The translations under genes were made by a program, and so were the position numbers. Source: Anoxynatronum buryatiense (GTDB lineage: Bacteria; Bacillota; Clostridia; Peptostreptococcales; Tindalliaceae). From it: DNA of 64,000 bases. Below, one piece after another: positions 702-9,415 of this stretch (positions within the stretch are counted from its first letter, which is position 1; the number at the start of each line of letters is the position of its first letter). The notes under the pieces were generated by a model. That model saw only the letters and a list, made by a program, of their open reading frames with translations, searched no databases and was not told the origin of the DNA. The stretch covers positions 552,165 through 616,164 of the forward strand of contig NZ_FXUF01000001.1 of NCBI RefSeq assembly GCF_900182905.1. Direction: 5' to 3'.

Positions 702-1664
702 ATGTTATTTAGCAACAAAAAACTCATTCTGTTTCTGGCATTAATGCTCTCGCTCATTCTTTTCACAGGATGTGGTTCTCCGGCACCCGCTCCGGCACCT
801 GCAGAAGAGCCGGCTCCGGCTGAAGAACCAGCCCCGGCAGAAGCACCTGAGGAAGAGCCCGAAGTTACACTTGACCCCGCAGAAGTCATTGCTGCTCACA
901 CAAGCAGTTATTTTGAGAGTATCCCAGATAACCTGAACATGATTCCCGTTGCAGATGTGCTGCAGTTGATGGAAGACAACCCCGACGCCATTGTGCTGGT
1001 GGATATGCGTGCGGCCGAAGACTACGAAGCCGGCCACCTTCCAGGTGCTGTCCACATTCCTTTCCCTGAGTTTGCCAATCAAATGAATCGCTTGTCCACC
1101 ACACGTCAAATTATTGTTTATTGCTACAGTGGACAGAATTCAGCGCAAGGCGTCGCCGCTTTAAAGCTTCTTGGTTACAACGCCATCTCCATGCAGGGTG
1201 GCATGAACTTCGGCTGGGCGCCATTGGATCTGGGTGAAGATACATTGGAAACTGAAGCCAGTGAACTGGGTGACGCGCGGGACATGAATCTGGACGATGA
1301 ACAAGAAATTCTGTTCGATGCCATCAGCACTTACTTTGCTGCCGGCAACAACCACATCATTCCGCCACAGGATCTTTTCGATTTAATTGACAGTACACCC
1401 GATGCCATCACCGTACTGGATATCCGGGCAGAAGATGATTTTGACACAGGTCATATTGAGGGTGCTGTCAATGTTCCTTTCCGGAACGTTGGTGAGCGTC
1501 TGAGTGAAATCAGCAAAGTGCGTCCCATCTATGTCACCTGCTATTCTGGCCAGACGGCTGGCCAGACCCATCTGCTGCTAAGACTTAACGGCTACAACAG
1601 CTTTACTCTAAACCGCGGCATGGCAGGCTGGACCAACGCCGAAATGCCCGTCGTTACCGAATAA
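702..1664 (+). CDS. Lipoprotein with two rhodanese domains
   Basis: A 320-residue exported lipoprotein. The signal peptide ends in a lipobox LFTGC with Cys24 as the lipidated residue, followed by a Pro/Ala/Glu-rich linker (about 25-58) that likely spaces the domains from the membrane. Two rhodanese folds follow, each with a complete CYSGQ active-site loop: Cys141 and Cys280. Both catalytic cysteines are kept, so both domains could carry persulfide sulfur; the acceptor is unknown. AAAGGAGG at 687-694 fixes the ATG at 702; the longer upstream frame has no ribosome-binding site. The gene stands alone between a leader and a terminator, directly before a multiheme cytochrome, suggesting a role in extracytoplasmic sulfur or electron metabolism (inference). 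Confidence 0.9.
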   Translation: MLFSNKKLILFLALMLSLILFTGCGSPAPAPAPAEEPAPAEEPAPAEAPEEEPEVTLDPAEVIAAHTSSYFESIPDNLNMIPVADVLQLMEDNPDAIVLVDMRAAEDYEAGHLPGAVHIPFPEFANQMNRLSTTRQIIVYCYSGQNSAQGVAALKLLGYNAISMQGGMNFGWAPLDLGEDTLETEASELGDARDMNLDDEQEILFDAISTYFAAGNNHIIPPQDLFDLIDSTPDAITVLDIRAEDDFDTGHIEGAVNVPFRNVGERLSEISKVRPIYVTCYSGQTAGQTHLLLRLNGYNSFTLNRGMAGWTNAEMPVVTE

Positions 1665-1830: not shown

Positions 1831-1908
1831 AATGTCAACACACTGATATTATATGAAACAAAATGATGTGCTGACATCGCGACGAATATCAACAATGGAG
1901 GTGATGTT

Positions 1909-3252
1909 ATGGCAGATAAATCCCTGAAACTCTATGAAAACAGATGGGTCAGTGCCCTCCTGATGACTGTTCTTTCTGTGGCGGTTCTGGCGGGAGTACA
2001 TACGCTTACCACCGGCAGTGGGCCAAAAGAGCCCACCACGCCTGTTTCCATCGCACCCACAGATAGCAGCAGCTGCATCGCATGCCATACAGATGCAACG
2101 GTCATCGAAACCATGGCGGTCATGGCAGAGGACGGCGGTCACGGCGGCGAAGGCGGCTGAGGTGTTGCCGGGCCTCAGTTGACGGCCACAGACATGTTTC
2201 TGGTTTCCACAGATTTTACAACCTCAACCCACGGCGAACTGGGATGTATCACCTGCCACGGTGGTGACAATGTGATGGACAAGGATGCCGCGCACACTGG
2301 CATGCAGCCTTATCCGTCCCGTGACCTGCAGGGAATCTGTTATCAGTGCCACGCCGGCGTGACCGATACCTTTGCCGATTCCATCCACTACAACCTTCAT
2401 GGTATGCAAAACGGACTCATGGCATTTTCCCATGACAGCCTTCTTTCGGATTCACCTCATCATGATGAAATTTTTGATAAGAACTGCATTGCCTGCCATG
2501 CAACCTGTGGCGATTGTCATGTGAGCCGGCCCAAGGTATTCACCGGCGGCCTCATCGATCAGCATAATTTCTTTGGAACCCCTCCCATGGATCAAACCTG
2601 CTTCGGATGTCACGGTGCCCGAAATGCCGGCGAGTTCATGGGGACAGTTGGTTTTCGGGGAGACGTTCACTTTGAAATGGGGATGACTTGCATGGACTGC
2701 CATCCTGTCAACAACTTCCATGGTACCGGGGAAGTGAATGACAGCATGTGGACGAAGTCTGAACTTCCCAGCTGCTATGACTGCCATGATGATCAGCGAC
2801 CCGGACAATCTGAACTACAGGTGCATAACATTCACGGTGATTCTTTGTCATGCCAGGTTTGCCATGCTCAGGCCAATAACAACTGCTTTGAATGTCACGT
2901 GGAATACAACGAAGACCAGACCGGACTGGGAAGCACCTCAACGGTTCGTCTGATGTTCCGTATTGGCAAGAATCCCATTCAGTCAGAATCTCGCCCCTAC
3001 GAATACGTCACCTTGCGGCATATCCCCACTTATGTGGATTCGTTTGAAGTCGTGGGACCAGACCTGCTTCCCAATTATGATGACATCAGCAACTGGAAAT
3101 ATTCCCCCACTCACAACATTCAGCGCATCACTTTCCAGAACGAATCGTGTGACGCATGCCACGGCAACGAGAAGATTTTCCTGCGGGAAGAAGATTTGCT
3201 GGAGTCTGACAGCAAGGCAAATTGGAACCTGATTCCAGTCGTTCCTCAATAG
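1909..3252 (+). CDS. 11-heme c-type cytochrome with one in-frame UGA (possible selenoprotein)
   Basis: Read through the single TGA at 2158-2160, this frame gives a 447-residue membrane-anchored cytochrome. Residues about 13-32 form one uncleaved hydrophobic anchor. There are eleven CxxCH heme sites: one before the UGA (CIACH, 56-60) and ten after it, including the tight pair CIACHATCGDCH. GGAGGTGAT before the ATG at 1909 is an excellent ribosome-binding site. The part after the UGA is in the same frame, has no signal peptide, and its first possible start (TTG at 2179) has no Shine-Dalgarno, so it makes no sense as a separate gene. The UGA is residue 84 in a Gly-rich stretch, GHGGEGG-UGA-GVAGPQ. 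A hairpin follows it. Either UGA encodes selenocysteine or the gene carries a nonsense mutation. ResB/ResC downstream supply heme ligation. The redox partner is unknown. Confidence 0.85.
2163..2190 (+). other. Hairpin directly downstream of the in-frame UGA (possible bacterial SECIS)
   Basis: Starting two bases after the UGA, UGU (2163-2165) pairs with ACA (2188-2190) and GCCG (2167-2170) with CGGC (2183-2186), with one U-C mismatch. The 12-nt loop can close further through UC/GA to expose AGUU, with its G at 2178. The spacing and exposed G/U resemble bacterial SECIS elements, but the helix is short. An alternative pairing, CTGAGG (2157-2162) with CCTCAG (2173-2178), competes. Suggestive only. 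Confidence 0.3.
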
Positions 3253-3362: not shown

Positions 3363-4634
3363 ATGACTTTCAATCGTATCAAACGCTGGTTGTTCAGCCT
3401 GCGATTTGGCATTTTTCTCTTTATTATAATGGCCATCTATGTCACCTTCGGAACCCTATTGCCCCAAGACCTTCCGCCTGGCCATTACCTGGACAGCTAC
3501 CGTCTTGGAAGTCTCATTATTGCTCTGGGATTCCATCAAACCTACAGTTCCTGGATTTTCAGAGTGATTATGGTCATGTTCTTAATCAATCTGGCGGGAT
3601 GTACCCTGAAAATGATTCCGTCACAACAACGACGCTATCGACAGGACTATTTCCCATCTCCCAAACCGGATGCAGAGAACCTGTGGCGGGATGACATTAC
3701 TTCTGATGAGTTGCTGGACCTGCTTCGTCGCAAAAAGTATCACATCTCCGAAATTCTCCATGAACCCGGAACTTACCATGCCACTCGCAACCGTTGGGGT
3801 GTTTTTGCCTCCACCATCACCCACGCAGGCATCATCACCATTATTCTGGGCAGTTTTATTGGGAACTATTTTGCTCAGGAAGGATTTTTCAACTTGATGC
3901 CCGGAGAAACTGCCACTTTTCATCAGGAAGGTTTTTCAGTTCAGCTTCAGGACTTCTACATGTCCTTCAGAGAAGACGGATCAACCGAGCAATACTATAG
4001 CGATCTGTTAATCCTGGAAAATGACGCTCCTGTCGGTTCAGAAACCATCTGGGTCAACCGTCCCCTGCGTCACCGGGGCATGATGCTTTATCAAAGCAGT
4101 TTTGGCTGGGCCAGTCGTCTGCAGATTAAAGAAATTGAAACCAATGAGGTAGTCTTCAATCAGTTCTTACGTAATGACGAAACCACTTTTTTTCAGCCTG
4201 CACATCTGACGGTGCATCTTTTTGGATATTTCCCGGAGTTTCAGCTGGGTCATCAGGGAATGCCTGTCACATTGTCCCAAGAAGAGCGCAATCCCCATTA
4301 TGCCGTGGTCCTCTATCATTTTGGTGAGTTTGTTGACTCTTTTATCATGAATCCCTCTCAGCGATTTACCTACCAGGGTTATGAAATTGGTTTTGCAGAA
4401 AGCGTATTATACACCGGCATTATTTATCGAAAAGACTTTGGTTACTATGCAGTGCTGGCCGGCTGTTTGCTGCTGATGGCGGGTCTTCTGATGGCTTTTT
4501 ACTTCTATCCCAAGTATATCCTTGTTCGTCAGGGGGAACTTTACGCCATTTCGCGACAAAATGCCTGGGGCTTCTCCATGTGGTTGAAGCGAATCCTCCA
4601 ACAACTGAAAGAGAAAGAAGGAGAACGTTCATGA
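3363..4634 (+). CDS. resB: Cytochrome c biogenesis protein ResB (Ccs1 family)
   Basis: A 423-residue membrane protein of the system II (Ccs) heme-ligation complex, which moves heme across the membrane and attaches it to CxxCH motifs. Membrane helices are visible near residues 12-32, 60-80 and 147-170, followed by a large extracytoplasmic domain and a last helix near 368-390, the usual ResB layout. The start SLRFGIFLFIIMAIYVTFGTLLPQ is typical of the family: a helix followed by G-T-L-x-PQ. AAGGAGG at 3350-3356 sets the ATG. Its stop overlaps the resC start (ATGA), so the two are translationally coupled, and the adjacent 11-heme cytochrome is the obvious client. Confidence 0.93.
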   Translation: MTFNRIKRWLFSLRFGIFLFIIMAIYVTFGTLLPQDLPPGHYLDSYRLGSLIIALGFHQTYSSWIFRVIMVMFLINLAGCTLKMIPSQQRRYRQDYFPSPKPDAENLWRDDITSDELLDLLRRKKYHISEILHEPGTYHATRNRWGVFASTITHAGIITIILGSFIGNYFAQEGFFNLMPGETATFHQEGFSVQLQDFYMSFREDGSTEQYYSDLLILENDAPVGSETIWVNRPLRHRGMMLYQSSFGWASRLQIKEIETNEVVFNQFLRNDETTFFQPAHLTVHLFGYFPEFQLGHQGMPVTLSQEERNPHYAVVLYHFGEFVDSFIMNPSQRFTYQGYEIGFAESVLYTGIIYRKDFGYYAVLAGCLLLMAGLLMAFYFYPKYILVRQGELYAISRQNAWGFSMWLKRILQQLKEKEGERS

Positions 4635-5449
4635 ATTTAATCGCTGTAGAAGAAATGTTGTTTACCATCGCCTTTGTGTTGTACATTGCTGCATCTCTCA
4701 GTTTTTTTGCTTTCCTGGCATCTTCCAAAGCCCGGGCCGGCCAATTGGGCGTTTATGCCGCTCTATCGGGATTTCTCATTCACACACTGGCCATGGGCGC
4801 CCGCATTCTTGAATCTGGCCGTCTGCCTTTCAGTAACCAGTATGAATTCGCCAACAGCTTTACCTGGGGCATTGTTCTTTGTTATTTGGCGATTCATTTC
4901 TACTATCGATTTACCGCAGTGGGTGCCTTTGTCATGCCTTTGGCATTTCTAATGATGGGATATGCCTCTTTACTGCCCCGTCATGTGCGCCCGCTAATGC
5001 CGGCATTGCAGAGCCGCTGGCTCACCGTCCACGTTGGCACCGCCGTGCTGTCTTATGGTGCTTTTGCTGTGGCCGCAGGTTTGTCTCTCATCTATCTCAT
5101 TTCAGGCCGCAAGGAAGGTGCTCATAAGAGGCGCCTGCTCCCTGATCTGGATGCCTGCGATTTTCTCAGTTACCGGATTATCGCTTTTGGGTACCTGATG
5201 CTTACACTGGTCATTGTCACCGGAGCCATCTGGGCCCGCAGTGCCTGGTCTCGTTACTGGGGGTGGGATCCGAAGGAAACCTGGTCTCTCATTACCTGGA
5301 TCATCTACTCTGCCTATCTTCATTTACGGTTTAACCGGGGCTGGAAGGGAAAACCAGCCGCCTGGTTTTCTGTCATTGGTTTCATCGCCGTTATTTTTAC
5401 CTTTATTGGGGTGAATACGCTTTTGCCTGGAATTCACAGTTACCGCTGA
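4631..5449 (+). CDS. resC: Cytochrome c biogenesis protein ResC/CcsA
   Basis: A 272-residue polytopic protein with about eight hydrophobic segments, partner of ResB in the system II synthase. The tryptophan-rich heme-handling motif WGWDPKETWSLITW is intact, and conserved histidines typical of CcsA heme coordination occur in the flanking helices (for example SRWLTVHVGTAVLSYG). The start is the ATG at 4631, which overlaps the resB stop as ATGA and has GAAGGAGAA upstream; the longer in-frame extension back to 4580 lies inside resB. No thiol-reduction partner (ResA, CcdA) is present in the window. Confidence 0.93.
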   Translation: MNLIAVEEMLFTIAFVLYIAASLSFFAFLASSKARAGQLGVYAALSGFLIHTLAMGARILESGRLPFSNQYEFANSFTWGIVLCYLAIHFYYRFTAVGAFVMPLAFLMMGYASLLPRHVRPLMPALQSRWLTVHVGTAVLSYGAFAVAAGLSLIYLISGRKEGAHKRRLLPDLDACDFLSYRIIAFGYLMLTLVIVTGAIWARSAWSRYWGWDPKETWSLITWIIYSAYLHLRFNRGWKGKPAAWFSVIGFIAVIFTFIGVNTLLPGIHSYR

Positions 5450-5527: not shown

Positions 5528-5902
5528 TTATTCAACTTTGGAAAGAGCATCTTCAATGGCTTCCAGAAGTCCTTCACTGGAACCAGTGGCACCGGAGACC
5601 GCATCCACATCGGTGGACTGGTTTTCCAGAACGGCTTCTATAACAGCATCAAAGGCGCCGTCAGACAAGCCCGGGGTGTCTGCTGATTCGACCACTTCGA
5701 TGGACTGAATAACCCCATCCAGAACAGTCACCTCAACAACCACATCGTCTGCATATCCCTGTCCTGTACCTGATACTGTCTGCGGGGTTGCCGCAGGTGC
5801 CTCTTCTGTGGCTCCTGATCCACCGCAAGCAGTCAATACTCCCATGGTAAGCACTGCAACCATCATCAGTATCAGTGCACCTTTCATTTGCTTCTTACTC
5901 AT
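5528..5902 (-). CDS. Small FMN-binding lipoprotein
   Basis: A 124-residue lipoprotein: signal peptide with lipobox LTAC (lipidated Cys26), a short Thr/Glu/Ala/Pro linker, then one FMN_bind domain. The C-terminal motif DAVSGATGSS contains the SGAT element in which the threonine (about 106) receives FMN through a phosphoester bond added by ApbE; an apbE gene lies at 21830-22924. Proteins of this size are the minimal covalent-flavin carriers found on the outside of Gram-positive cells. AAGGAGG lies seven bases before the ATG. It faces resC convergently and is probably monocistronic. Its likely role is one-electron transfer at the cell surface, perhaps linked to the nearby cytochrome (inference). 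Confidence 0.9.
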   Translation of the reverse strand: MSKKQMKGALILMMVAVLTMGVLTACGGSGATEEAPAATPQTVSGTGQGYADDVVVEVTVLDGVIQSIEVVESADTPGLSDGAFDAVIEAVLENQSTDVDAVSGATGSSEGLLEAIEDALSKVE

Positions 5903-6168: not shown

Positions 6169-6813
6169 TTACCGATCTTCATCTTTTCCAGCCCGATGTT
6201 TTAACCAAAAAGCTGCCGCCTCTGTTCGATTGGTTACGTTTATTTTTTTCATGATTTTTGTAATCAGATTACGCACTGTCTTTTCTGCTAAAAAAAGACT
6301 TTCTCCAATTTCTTTATTGGTTTTCCCCTGACTAATCAGGTTCAAAACCATCTGTTCCCGATCAATCAACTGGCCAATCAGCGGATCTCTGGATGTGGAC
6401 AGCATGGTATTTCCCACTGATGGGTCCATCACCATCAGACTGTTTAAGACGTTATGAATCGCCTGAATGATGGAGCGTCCGTCCACATTTTTCAACAAGT
6501 ATCCGTCAGCACCATTACGCAGGCTTTCCTGAACCATATAATCCTCTGCAAAAGCTGTCAGAATCAACACTTTTGTACCTGGGAGCATTCGTTTCATTTC
6601 TCTGACACCTTCAGCTCCATAGCCATCGGGCAGTTTCATGTCAAGCAGTATCAGGTCAGGTGTGATCGATGACAACAGCTGGTAGGCTTCAGACAACGAT
6701 GCTGCCTCTGCGCAGACTTTCAGTTCAGGATCATTGTCAATTAAACCTTTGAGCCCCATTCGTACAATGTTATGATCGTCCACCAGCATGATCTGACTGA
6801 TGTCCTTTTTCAT
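6169..6813 (-). CDS. NarL/LuxR-type response regulator
   Basis: A 214-residue two-component regulator. The receiver has the acidic pair in LVDDH (12-13), phosphoacceptor Asp58 in LILLDMKLPDG, the Thr switch in LILTAF and the conserved Lys in YLLKN. A LuxR-type helix-turn-helix fills about 148-205 (REQMVLNLISQGKTNKEIGE then AEKTVRNLITKIMKKI). It is translated just after the histidine kinase: the kinase stop and this ATG are two bases apart, with GGGAGGAG overlapping the kinase end. Such pairs often respond to envelope or redox cues; the regulon is not evident here. Confidence 0.92.
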   Translation of the reverse strand: MKKDISQIMLVDDHNIVRMGLKGLIDNDPELKVCAEAASLSEAYQLLSSITPDLILLDMKLPDGYGAEGVREMKRMLPGTKVLILTAFAEDYMVQESLRNGADGYLLKNVDGRSIIQAIHNVLNSLMVMDPSVGNTMLSTSRDPLIGQLIDREQMVLNLISQGKTNKEIGESLFLAEKTVRNLITKIMKKINVTNRTEAAAFWLKHRAGKDEDR

Positions 6814-6814
6814 T

Positions 6815-8212
6815 TTATCGCTCCTCCCAGGGAACCATGATGGTTACATAGGTGTGTGATTGCCGACGTTCAAAATGAATGGTGGCATTCATTTTTTCAG
6901 CCCTTTCTTTCATGGATCGTATTCCAAATCCCTGAAAAGAATCAGATGTCAACGAAATACCGATGCCATTGTCTTCAATGCGTATCACCAGTTCTTCAAG
7001 GTTTGAGGTGGCTGTCAGTCGAACATGACTCGCCTGGGCATGCTTTTGAATATTCAGCAGCGCTTCCTGTACGATGTAGTAAAGCTGGGCATTTTTCTCG
7101 GCAGAGAGTTTTCCCAGCACCATTGGTGGAACGTGATACTCAAAATCCAGTTTTGCCTGAGATTGCATTCGAAAGCGATCCACCAGATGCTGCAGGTTTT
7201 CCTGAAAGTCCTCCATAACGAGGCTGCTCTCAGAAAAACTCTTCAGGAACGCCCGGGCTTCTCCAATGGTTGCATTCAACTCATCTTTGAGTACCAACAG
7301 CCCTTCTTCATAGGTGGCCGGTTCTTTACCCAGCATATTTTCAATATAGATTCCTGCCCCAAAAAGACGTTGGATAATCTGATCATGCACCATTCGAGTG
7401 GTTTTCTTTCGTTCCTGCAGCAAAAGCTGTCGCTGCGCATACTCATTAAGACGTTCCTGCATTTCCCAGCAGAAAGAATCAAACAACCGTATGGTCAATA
7501 TGGTAATTCCGATGGCCGAACCCGCCCGCAGCAGCTCAATTGGAAGCCTGGATGTCATAATAATGGTTTCCACCGCCGTGACATTTTGATAAGAACCTGT
7601 CATTTGTGGTGTTAAGAGCCCCGCTGTGATCCCATAGACAATGAACAGAACGCCGGCAACACTATAGAGCCGGGCATAGACCGGTAACTTGAGTAACCGC
7701 AACTGACGCCCACTGAGATAATAGGCCACACCCGACAGCAGTGCCCCAGGGAATCCCATGAAGTAGCGGGTAAGGTGGTTAAATAAAGTGATGTGACGGT
7801 ATACCTGCACCGGAGCACCATAGTATCTCCCAAGGTAGAAAAAACACCAGAGGGTAAAGATCATCGCTGGAATCCAAATATGCAGATTTAAGTATTTCAG
7901 GCGTTCCCGCACCAACAGGGCTATGGCAAAGCTGAGTAAGAATGCATAGGAAGCACCATTAACAAAGGTCTCGACCAGGTACAGTCCCGAATCAATCTCC
8001 TGATAAACACCCATGACCCGCAACATGATTATCCATTCGGAAATACCATGAAGCACCCCGAAAAAACCCAGCAAGTGGATACATCGCATCAGTGGAAATT
8101 CACTGCTATGCCTTAACTTCTGTTGTAATGATGAAGTTCCCAGAGTAAAAAAGGCCAAGCCATAAAAGAAAAAAAGCCAAATATACGAATGGGAATTGAT
8201 CAGCACAAACAC
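6815..8212 (-). CDS. Membrane sensor histidine kinase (HisKA_3 family)
   Basis: A 465-residue kinase paired with the downstream regulator. The N-terminal half (about 10-245) is a seven-helix membrane sensor with hardly any extracellular domain, implying an intramembrane or small-molecule signal. His276 sits in RMVHDQIIQRL; the Asp and Gln after it form the DxxxQ phosphatase motif of this family, although the residue before His is Val rather than the usual acidic or Leu residue. The ATPase domain has its N box (EALLNIQKHA), G1 box (EDNGIG) and GFGIRSMKERAE. Translation starts at a GTG (8212) preceded by GGGAGGAG. Confidence 0.9.
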   Translation of the reverse strand: MFVLINSHSYIWLFFFYGLAFFTLGTSSLQQKLRHSSEFPLMRCIHLLGFFGVLHGISEWIIMLRVMGVYQEIDSGLYLVETFVNGASYAFLLSFAIALLVRERLKYLNLHIWIPAMIFTLWCFFYLGRYYGAPVQVYRHITLFNHLTRYFMGFPGALLSGVAYYLSGRQLRLLKLPVYARLYSVAGVLFIVYGITAGLLTPQMTGSYQNVTAVETIIMTSRLPIELLRAGSAIGITILTIRLFDSFCWEMQERLNEYAQRQLLLQERKKTTRMVHDQIIQRLFGAGIYIENMLGKEPATYEEGLLVLKDELNATIGEARAFLKSFSESSLVMEDFQENLQHLVDRFRMQSQAKLDFEYHVPPMVLGKLSAEKNAQLYYIVQEALLNIQKHAQASHVRLTATSNLEELVIRIEDNGIGISLTSDSFQGFGIRSMKERAEKMNATIHFERRQSHTYVTIMVPWEER

Positions 8213-8361: not shown

Positions 8362-9321
8362 TCATGGAGCATCAGGTGATTCATTCATCATTTTACGAAC
8401 CCGCTGTTCATCCCGATAGAGAATGGGGGCAGAGGAAAAAAACTGTCCTTCTTCAAAGGCTTTTCGTTCCATGTTCATCAACTCATGGGTAATTTGGGTC
8501 ATATTGCGAGGCGTTTCTGGCGGCAGGACAAATGCATCGTCTCCCAGTGTATGCCTTCGGTAATACACATAGCTTTTCCAAAGACGCTGTTTGATCCGGC
8601 TCACTTTTGAAGGTTGTCTTAAAATCGCCTGTATTTGCATTTTGAGTTCTTCTGAATGCCCAGGGAAAAAACCCTTGGGCAGTGCTGCCAGATCTTTCCC
8701 GATCTGTCGGGCGGCTGGTTCGTCCAGCTCCTGACACAAAAACTTGACAGTATACCACAAATTATACAATTCCTGCTTCGAAGTCACCTCTTGCCTTCCC
8801 ACCCAAACAAACGCATGCAGCCTTCTGCGCCAATCCCACCAACGCAGTGGGCTTTCGAGATCAATGGCTGGAATAAGAAAAAAACCTTCCTCAAGGAGCA
8901 GCGCCCCCAAAACGCCCGGGGGGTGTCCCAGTCTTTGGTTTTTAAGGCTTGTGCGGTAAACACCACAGGTAGGGCTGCCCTCCATAAAAACATACCCAAC
9001 GGCTCCGGCTGATCGCAAAATCTCCAGCGATTGGAGACAAGCCTGTTTGACAGCATCTGTCACGTCCTGTCCTCTGCGATTCAGCACACGCGCTTTTCCA
9101 GCCCATACATCGTGCCCATTGCCTCCCGAAAGTCGAATGGGATCTCTGGGGACACCCAGGCCTGCCGCCACTTCAGGACAGACAGGATGCCAGATGAAAT
9201 CACCCTGCTCCCTGTTCAACAGCTGGATTCGATCCCACCCTTTCCGGTTATATCTGTAGGGCGCCCCAAAATTACATCCACTCACTCCCAAAACCACTTT
9301 ATCCTGCAGAATGAACTTCAT
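8362..9321 (-). CDS. DUF523 family protein with a long C-terminal extension
   Basis: A 319-residue protein. Residues 1-150 match the DUF523 (YbbK-like) pattern: VLGVSGCNFGAPYRYNRKG near the start, HPVCPEVAAGLGVPRDPIRL, and the cysteine motif EGSPTCGVYRT. DUF523 alone is usually about 150 residues, so the C-terminal half, rich in charged and aromatic residues, is an added domain I do not recognise. The ATG at 9321 is chosen because GGAG sits nine bases upstream; two upstream ATGs (9336, 9327) are too close to or before that site. Function is unknown; the conserved cysteines suggest metal or sulfur chemistry. Confidence 0.75.
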   Translation of the reverse strand: MKFILQDKVVLGVSGCNFGAPYRYNRKGWDRIQLLNREQGDFIWHPVCPEVAAGLGVPRDPIRLSGGNGHDVWAGKARVLNRRGQDVTDAVKQACLQSLEILRSAGAVGYVFMEGSPTCGVYRTSLKNQRLGHPPGVLGALLLEEGFFLIPAIDLESPLRWWDWRRRLHAFVWVGRQEVTSKQELYNLWYTVKFLCQELDEPAARQIGKDLAALPKGFFPGHSEELKMQIQAILRQPSKVSRIKQRLWKSYVYYRRHTLGDDAFVLPPETPRNMTQITHELMNMERKAFEEGQFFSSAPILYRDEQRVRKMMNESPDAP

Positions 9322-9415
9322 GACCATCAGCTCCATTTCTGATCATTTATATTTCAATAGTTTTCGCTGTCTCTGGCCTTTCCTTGGGCTTATACCCATT
9401 ACATGGTTAAATATG

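Follow-up and report, generated by a model that had tools for sequence, protein, structure and literature searches.

We identified a gene for a membrane-anchored 11-heme c-type cytochrome in Anoxynatronum buryatiense whose single in-frame UGA (2158-2160) is predicted to specify selenocysteine (Sec) through SelB and tRNA-Sec. We propose that its product, together with a rhodanese, reduces sulfane sulfur of the thiosulfate type. We place the probability of this reading at roughly 0.8, a figure that weighs Sec insertion, sulfane-sulfur reduction, and the sulfur-transfer mechanism jointly. Taken separately, Sec insertion at residue 84 is, judged from sequence, very nearly certain. Sulfane-sulfur reduction with the rhodanese, which draws on gene linkage, gene fusion, and one expression study, has about an even chance of being correct. 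Transfer of sulfur to the selenolate, followed by reduction by the hemes, is a mechanism that we infer. Positions below refer to the window, the whole 64,000-nucleotide stretch of DNA that was analyzed.

The UGA column in the cytochrome family

Translation of the window yielded a frame (1909-3252) of 447 codons plus TAG, with a single internal TGA at codon 84. A sequence-only reading had reported this lone TGA in an otherwise open frame, with the membrane anchor and heme 1 before it and hemes 2-11 after it, and our translation bears out both descriptions. All 11 CxxCH motifs are intact, one lying before the TGA (residues 56-60) and 10 after. The gene comprises the following features:

1897-1903, plus strand: GGAGGTG resembling a ribosome-binding site, ahead of ATG 1909 (sequence)
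1909-3252, plus strand: read-through gene for a membrane-anchored 11-heme c-type cytochrome with predicted Sec at residue 84 and a TAG stop (translation, homologs, AlphaFold2)
1942-2010, plus strand: N-terminal hydrophobic anchor, inside a predicted helix of residues 4-34 (sequence, AlphaFold2)
2074-2088, plus strand: heme-binding motif 1, CIACH, upstream of the TGA (motif reading)
2158-2160, plus strand: in-frame TGA, predicted Sec codon for residue 84 (column conserved among homologs)
2171-2187, plus strand: predicted SECIS-type hairpin, stem 2171-2176 pairing with 2181-2182 and 2184-2187, C2183 bulged (RNA folding, covariation)
2245-3162, plus strand: heme-binding motifs 2-11 (motif reading)

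The AlphaFold2 model of the read-through protein had a mean pLDDT of 86.3 and a pTM of 0.79. Residues 79-82, beside Sec, fell under a pLDDT of 50, which fits a flexible loop at this place. A fold search of the PDB returned no clear structural relative (4qo5 exemplifies the solved multiheme folds), and among solved chains a profile search produced seven weak matches, the strongest of them a cytochrome c chain (E 4.5e-08). Pfam assigned general multiheme cytochrome models only, and the NCBIfam scan of the protein found no model over its cut-off. Neither the plasmid collection nor PHROG contained a match. In some relatives (L014/L016, L097) a lipobox-like Cys replaces the N-terminal anchor.

To follow the UGA column across homologs, the collection was scanned with a 53-protein alignment and the best 80 of at least 564 confirmed loci were taken, ranked by similarity and not by the presence of TGA. 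L014 and L015, whose identity to L016 and L027 was checked, were left out of the counts as duplicates. In 79 of these 80 loci, TGA occupied the same column, which falls after heme 1 and before heme 2; the column was placed by script in 78 and by reading in L032. The sole exception, L038, has TCA (Ser). Its genome has selB and its contig stops within the gene; either a real loss or an assembly error may be at work. Record titles named Clostridia, Tissierellia, Spirochaetes, Chloroflexi, Desulfobulbaceae/Deltaproteobacteria, an Actinomycetes metagenome-assembled genome, and others; metagenome-assembled genomes make up the majority of the 80 records. A G-U-[GA] context was shared by 75 of the 79 genes counted. 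The column lies 25-31 residues past heme 1 and 29-30 ahead of heme 2 in most of the 80 loci. The sequence-only reading had placed residue 84 in a Gly-rich segment near, and not inside, a heme motif.

Closer to the window, three of the seven genomes of its family (its own included) have the gene, each with one internal TGA. Among 391 genomes of its class searched at 1e-30, its own genome alone matched, so the family is rare in this class. A separate draw covered 400 genomes of Chloroflexota, the phylum of the Thermanaerothrix daxensis record, with a Cys homolog as query (E 1e-30). This search gave 13 matches in 12 genomes, each with one TGA and one with a TAA as well. The column could be placed in all 13, and every one had TGA there and G at +18; nine of the matches were new and four repeated earlier loci (L041, L065, L086, L088). 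One Chloroflexi genome (G421) has two copies of the Sec cytochrome, L102 and L113.

A recent nonsense mutation, which the sequence-only reading had named as its main alternative, or a sequencing error in one genome would also leave one TGA as the only break in the frame. The same TGA recurs in all but one of the 80 loci and in every one of the 13 matches from the separate draw, nine of which were new. Because the codon is conserved across phyla, a recent nonsense mutation is ruled out, and we give this whole explanation a negligible probability.

Protein records of the family present a different picture from the loci. We examined the 120 best of 676 database matches, of which 114 start after the Sec column (111 wholly; three with a single first residue aligned before it). 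Among the six that span the column, the residue is Cys in five (P0093, P0094, P0099, P0105, P0121) and Trp in P0005, the latter probably a TGA translated as W. Thus a search for a conserved UGA or for Cys or Sec at this column, as the sequence-only reading had suggested, found TGA in 79 of 80 loci and Cys in five proteins, the exceptions being one Ser and one Trp. Most of the listed members are stored without the anchor region, heme 1, and Sec because annotation breaks the gene off at the UGA, and several carry the label 'thiosulfate/3-mercaptopyruvate sulfurtransferase'. The cytochrome family is large and is shortened in databases.

Predicted hairpin and selenoprotein machinery

A bacterial SECIS element is a hairpin that lies just 3' of the UGA and whose loop begins with a G. 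The window's hairpin has the loop AGUU (2177-2180), with the loop G at 2178 (+18). We compared this region across 80 TGA genes, comprising the window's and 79 loci with L038 (Ser) left out. From the TGA onward these genes align without gaps, and the distance of the hairpin from the TGA is nearly fixed. Position +18 was G in 79 of 80 genes, compared with 40.7 (sd 3.7) expected from their own synonymous usage, and this G arises via CCG, CAG, GAG, and CGG codons. Leu at +19 was encoded by TTR in 47 of 52 cases (18.0 expected, sd 3.2).

A hairpin score that allowed no bulges beat synonymous recodings (p<=0.05) in 69 of 80 genes. As it missed the window (p 0.56) and its two nearest relatives, we adopted a second score, RNA folding of +9 to +29 with bulges allowed. 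By this score 67 of 80 genes reached p<=0.05, compared with 3 of 80 random control places in the same genes; 13 genes missed p 0.05, and the window's gene had p 0.01 against synonymous recodings. Weak folding scores in L017-L021 (Tissierellia/Gudongella-type) reflect a best stem shifted about four bases further downstream, with a GGA loop. Covariation over the 80 genes was 0.490, compared with 0.134 for shuffled and 0.088-0.257 for slid alignments. Five of the six stem pairs changed on both sides, a number that 298 of 500 shuffles also reach. Pairing cells amounted to 82.4% over the 80 genes (60.1% shuffled) and to 93.4% in a chosen subset of 48 genes with one stem register. A predicted hairpin of the kind expected for a UGA-encoded Sec follows the TGA and covaries in the family; the window's own copy is short and bulged, and unexceptional in longer folds. 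Rfam gave no match to window positions 2100-2260 at E 1. A search of the genome for RF00031 also gave no match, and is uninformative since 14 controls likewise had none.

The sequence-only reading had called for a check of selA, selB, selC, and selD in the genome, and all four are present. Scores were 600.3 bits for selA (cut-off 267.9), 389.6 for selB (cut-off 242.25), and 390.2 for selD (cut-off 125), with the three genes within 7 kb on contig C3. ARAGORN located tRNA-Sec (selC) inside the selB locus, and the selD frame contains a TGA of its own (context KSAGUAAKIG). We then tested 50 of the 80 locus genomes, 49 with the TGA form and one with the Ser form (L038). selB exceeded its cut-off in 46; one of the four others fell just short, with a partial match (226 bits). 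By comparison, 24 genomes had selB among 148 from the window's class, its own included. The difference from the class, with the window's own genome left out, had a Fisher p of 7e-23, although the locus genomes come from other phyla as well. In Chloroflexota, selB was present in 12 of 12 carriers and in 12 of 20 non-carriers taken from the separate draw (Fisher p 0.014), being common in that phylum anyway.

Together, the conserved TGA, the Cys homologs, the covarying hairpin, and the sel genes support, at the level of sequence, the assignment of residue 84 as Sec. Two other ways of reading the UGA can be weighed against the same data. In one, TGA would be a sense codon such as Trp in this organism, or would be read through without selenium. 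The W at this column in P0005 speaks for this; however, the frame contains only a single TGA, its column is conserved, five of the six residues translated at this column are Cys, and both sel genes and hairpin are present. We consider it highly improbable.

In the other, the UGA would terminate a short anchor protein with one heme, and the 10-heme part would be made separately by coupled re-initiation, with the conserved UGA marking this layout. Such an arrangement is how 114 of 120 listed homologs are annotated, and a GAGGTG (2159-2164) overlaps the UGA. This motif ends 14 nt before TTG 2179, the earliest start beyond the TGA, as the sequence-only reading had found. A gap of 14 nt is longer than usual for a ribosome-binding site. 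The accompanying statement that no ribosome-binding site follows the TGA was nearly right, and not strictly so because of this GAGGTG. Its companion, that the downstream part has no signal, held: the 10-heme part would start without the export signal required for heme attachment. Moreover, the five Cys homologs run uninterrupted through the column, and re-initiation gives no role to a covarying hairpin with G at +18. This leaves re-initiation very unlikely, and we retain decoding as Sec.

Neighboring rhodaneses and proposed sulfur reduction

Three genes lie around the cytochrome gene:

702-1664, plus strand: two-domain rhodanese lipoprotein, just upstream of the cytochrome (PF00581, E 2.6e-34, two stretches)
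3363-4634, plus strand: ResB, cytochrome c maturation (PF05140, E 1.1e-46)
4580-5449, plus strand: CcsB-type cytochrome c assembly protein, true start possibly further downstream (TIGR03144 over cut-off, PF01578)

The rhodanese frame is open from TTG 594, and a start at ATG 702 gives a lipobox-like beginning. We consider this protein the likely sulfur-donor partner of the cytochrome. Searching the flanks of the 80 loci (the window's included) with the window's neighbors revealed a rhodanese next to the cytochrome, or fused with it, in 66, with the best match on the same strand every time. The remaining 14 had none in the flank searched, some flanks being short. Its position varies, before the cytochrome in some groups and after it in others. 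In four loci, rhodanese and cytochrome share one frame (C-terminal in L032; on the N-terminal side in L041, L056, and L073). Pfam confirmed the rhodanese in five of five sampled loci, with two or four matched stretches; the Chloroflexi partner gene at 7345-9093 of L065 encodes a single protein with four rhodanese stretches. The same search detected ResB in 14 of 80 loci and CcsB in 19.

Other genes in the vicinity encode a LuxR-type response regulator with a histidine kinase, adjoining an FMN-binding lipoprotein (6169-8212 and 5528-5902, minus strand). These are convergent with the cytochrome and ccs genes, of which the regulator and kinase are a possible control system. Further along, 8362-9336 (minus strand) encodes a DUF523/2-thiouracil desulfurase (PF04463) in an ordinary open frame; a Sec form of this family from elsewhere is listed in the available part of the 2026 inventory PMC13188914.

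A lead on function came from Dethiobacter alkaliphilus. Its homolog P0050 shares 57% identity with the window protein across 79% of the latter's length, and as listed has no anchor, heme 1, or Sec. Reading upstream on its 141,591-base contig revealed a lipobox-like start, heme 1, a TGA, and a six-pair hairpin, giving 11 hemes on read-through, with a two-rhodanese gene directly downstream. From adjacency and annotation, and not from a locus tag, we infer that P0050 is DealDRAFT_1917. Melton et al. (PMC5609068), in the text available, called that gene a 'thiosulfate sulfurtransferase' adjoining the rhodanese DealDRAFT_1918. The accessible portion of PMC10376724 corrects it to a cytochrome, and reports it as one of four cytochromes with significant upregulation on thiosulfate vs ferrihydrite. 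The same portion describes D. alkaliphilus as having neither DsrAB nor molybdopterin sulfur reductases. The string 'selen' does not occur in the main texts of PMC10376724 and PMC5609068, as far as these were available.

These observations suggest a working model. The UGA would be decoded by the genome-encoded SelB/tRNA-Sec machinery, and the 11-heme cytochrome would likely work outside the cytoplasm, anchored in the membrane, with the neighboring two-domain rhodanese. A rhodanese persulfide would pass its sulfane sulfur to the selenolate on a flexible, Gly-rich loop that separates heme 1 from heme 2. The hemes would then supply two electrons, and the sulfur would be released as sulfide. We found no conserved non-heme Cys able to resolve a selenenyl sulfide.

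Beyond what had been read from the sequence, the cytochrome has a genomic tie to rhodaneses and, probably, a role in thiosulfate or sulfane-sulfur reduction. It is a candidate for thiosulfate reduction in D. alkaliphilus, an organism reported, in the literature text at hand, without canonical sulfur and thiosulfate reductases. If the model is true, sulfur respiration would be coupled to selenium supply, and most listed members would be stored truncated, without the likely active site. More tentatively, and with somewhat less than even odds, the family may constitute a new and widespread class of selenium-dependent respiratory sulfur reductases hidden by annotation. Its members would combine Sec on a mobile Gly-rich loop, a dedicated and sometimes fused rhodanese, and reduction through a heme chain, supporting thiosulfate or sulfur respiration without Dsr, Psr, or Phs.

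Comparison with known systems

The 2026 inventory PMC13188914 contains 119 selenoprotein families. In its available part, the cytochrome or CXXCH entries are ExtKL (NF040886), the GSU2204 family (NF041027), and the octaheme family TIGR04315. If our assignment is true, a selenoprotein family spanning several phyla is absent from these 119 entries, as far as the available part extends. We found the family described nowhere in the literature searched, the accessible text of PMC13188914 included; Haft and Gwadz 2023, Haft and Tolstoy 2025, and Deng et al. 2026 may mention it. The word 'cytochrome' is absent from the main text of the deep-Sep paper PMC12013277 in the form available.

ExtKL of Geobacter, according to the accessible part of PMC5877670, is a predicted 5-heme selenoprotein whose cluster includes the rhodanese ExtH and is tied to selenite and tellurite reduction. 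It thus resembles the window cytochrome in being a multiheme protein with a predicted Sec and a rhodanese nearby. This likeness, along with weak profile similarity of family members to ExtN/ExtO/ExtM, raises the alternative that the UGA does encode Sec, but in a selenite or tellurite reductase or a general extracellular electron carrier. Sec would then be a heme ligand or redox buffer, with the rhodanese serving selenium or sulfur traffic only. In contrast to the five hemes of ExtKL, the window gene and most loci have 11 CxxCH motifs. Neither NF040886 nor NF041027 matched any of 10 members scanned (P0001 at E 0.001; nine others at E 0.01), and the sole expression report, in its available text, points to thiosulfate. 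We regard this alternative as unlikely, though far less so than those concerning the UGA itself, and favor sulfane-sulfur reduction.

Octaheme tetrathionate reductase (TIGR04315), a multiheme sulfur-related cytochrome like ours, has a Sec form that the available part of PMC13188914 lists from GenBank annotation. However, only one of 10 members matched its model (L043, at 29.2 bits compared with a cut-off of 375), P0001 did not match at E 0.001, and a search of four locus genomes found none over the cut-off. The accessible text of PMC10376724 describes the SirA/MccA sulfite reductases as octaheme and 22% identical to DealDRAFT_1917, with no mention of Sec; on this description they differ from the 11-heme window cytochrome. 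Another close counterpart is DealDRAFT_1917 itself. Whereas the available texts treat it without Sec and the window cytochrome has a predicted Sec, P0050 and the window cytochrome both have 11 hemes when read through, and both adjoin a rhodanese, as DealDRAFT_1917 adjoins DealDRAFT_1918.
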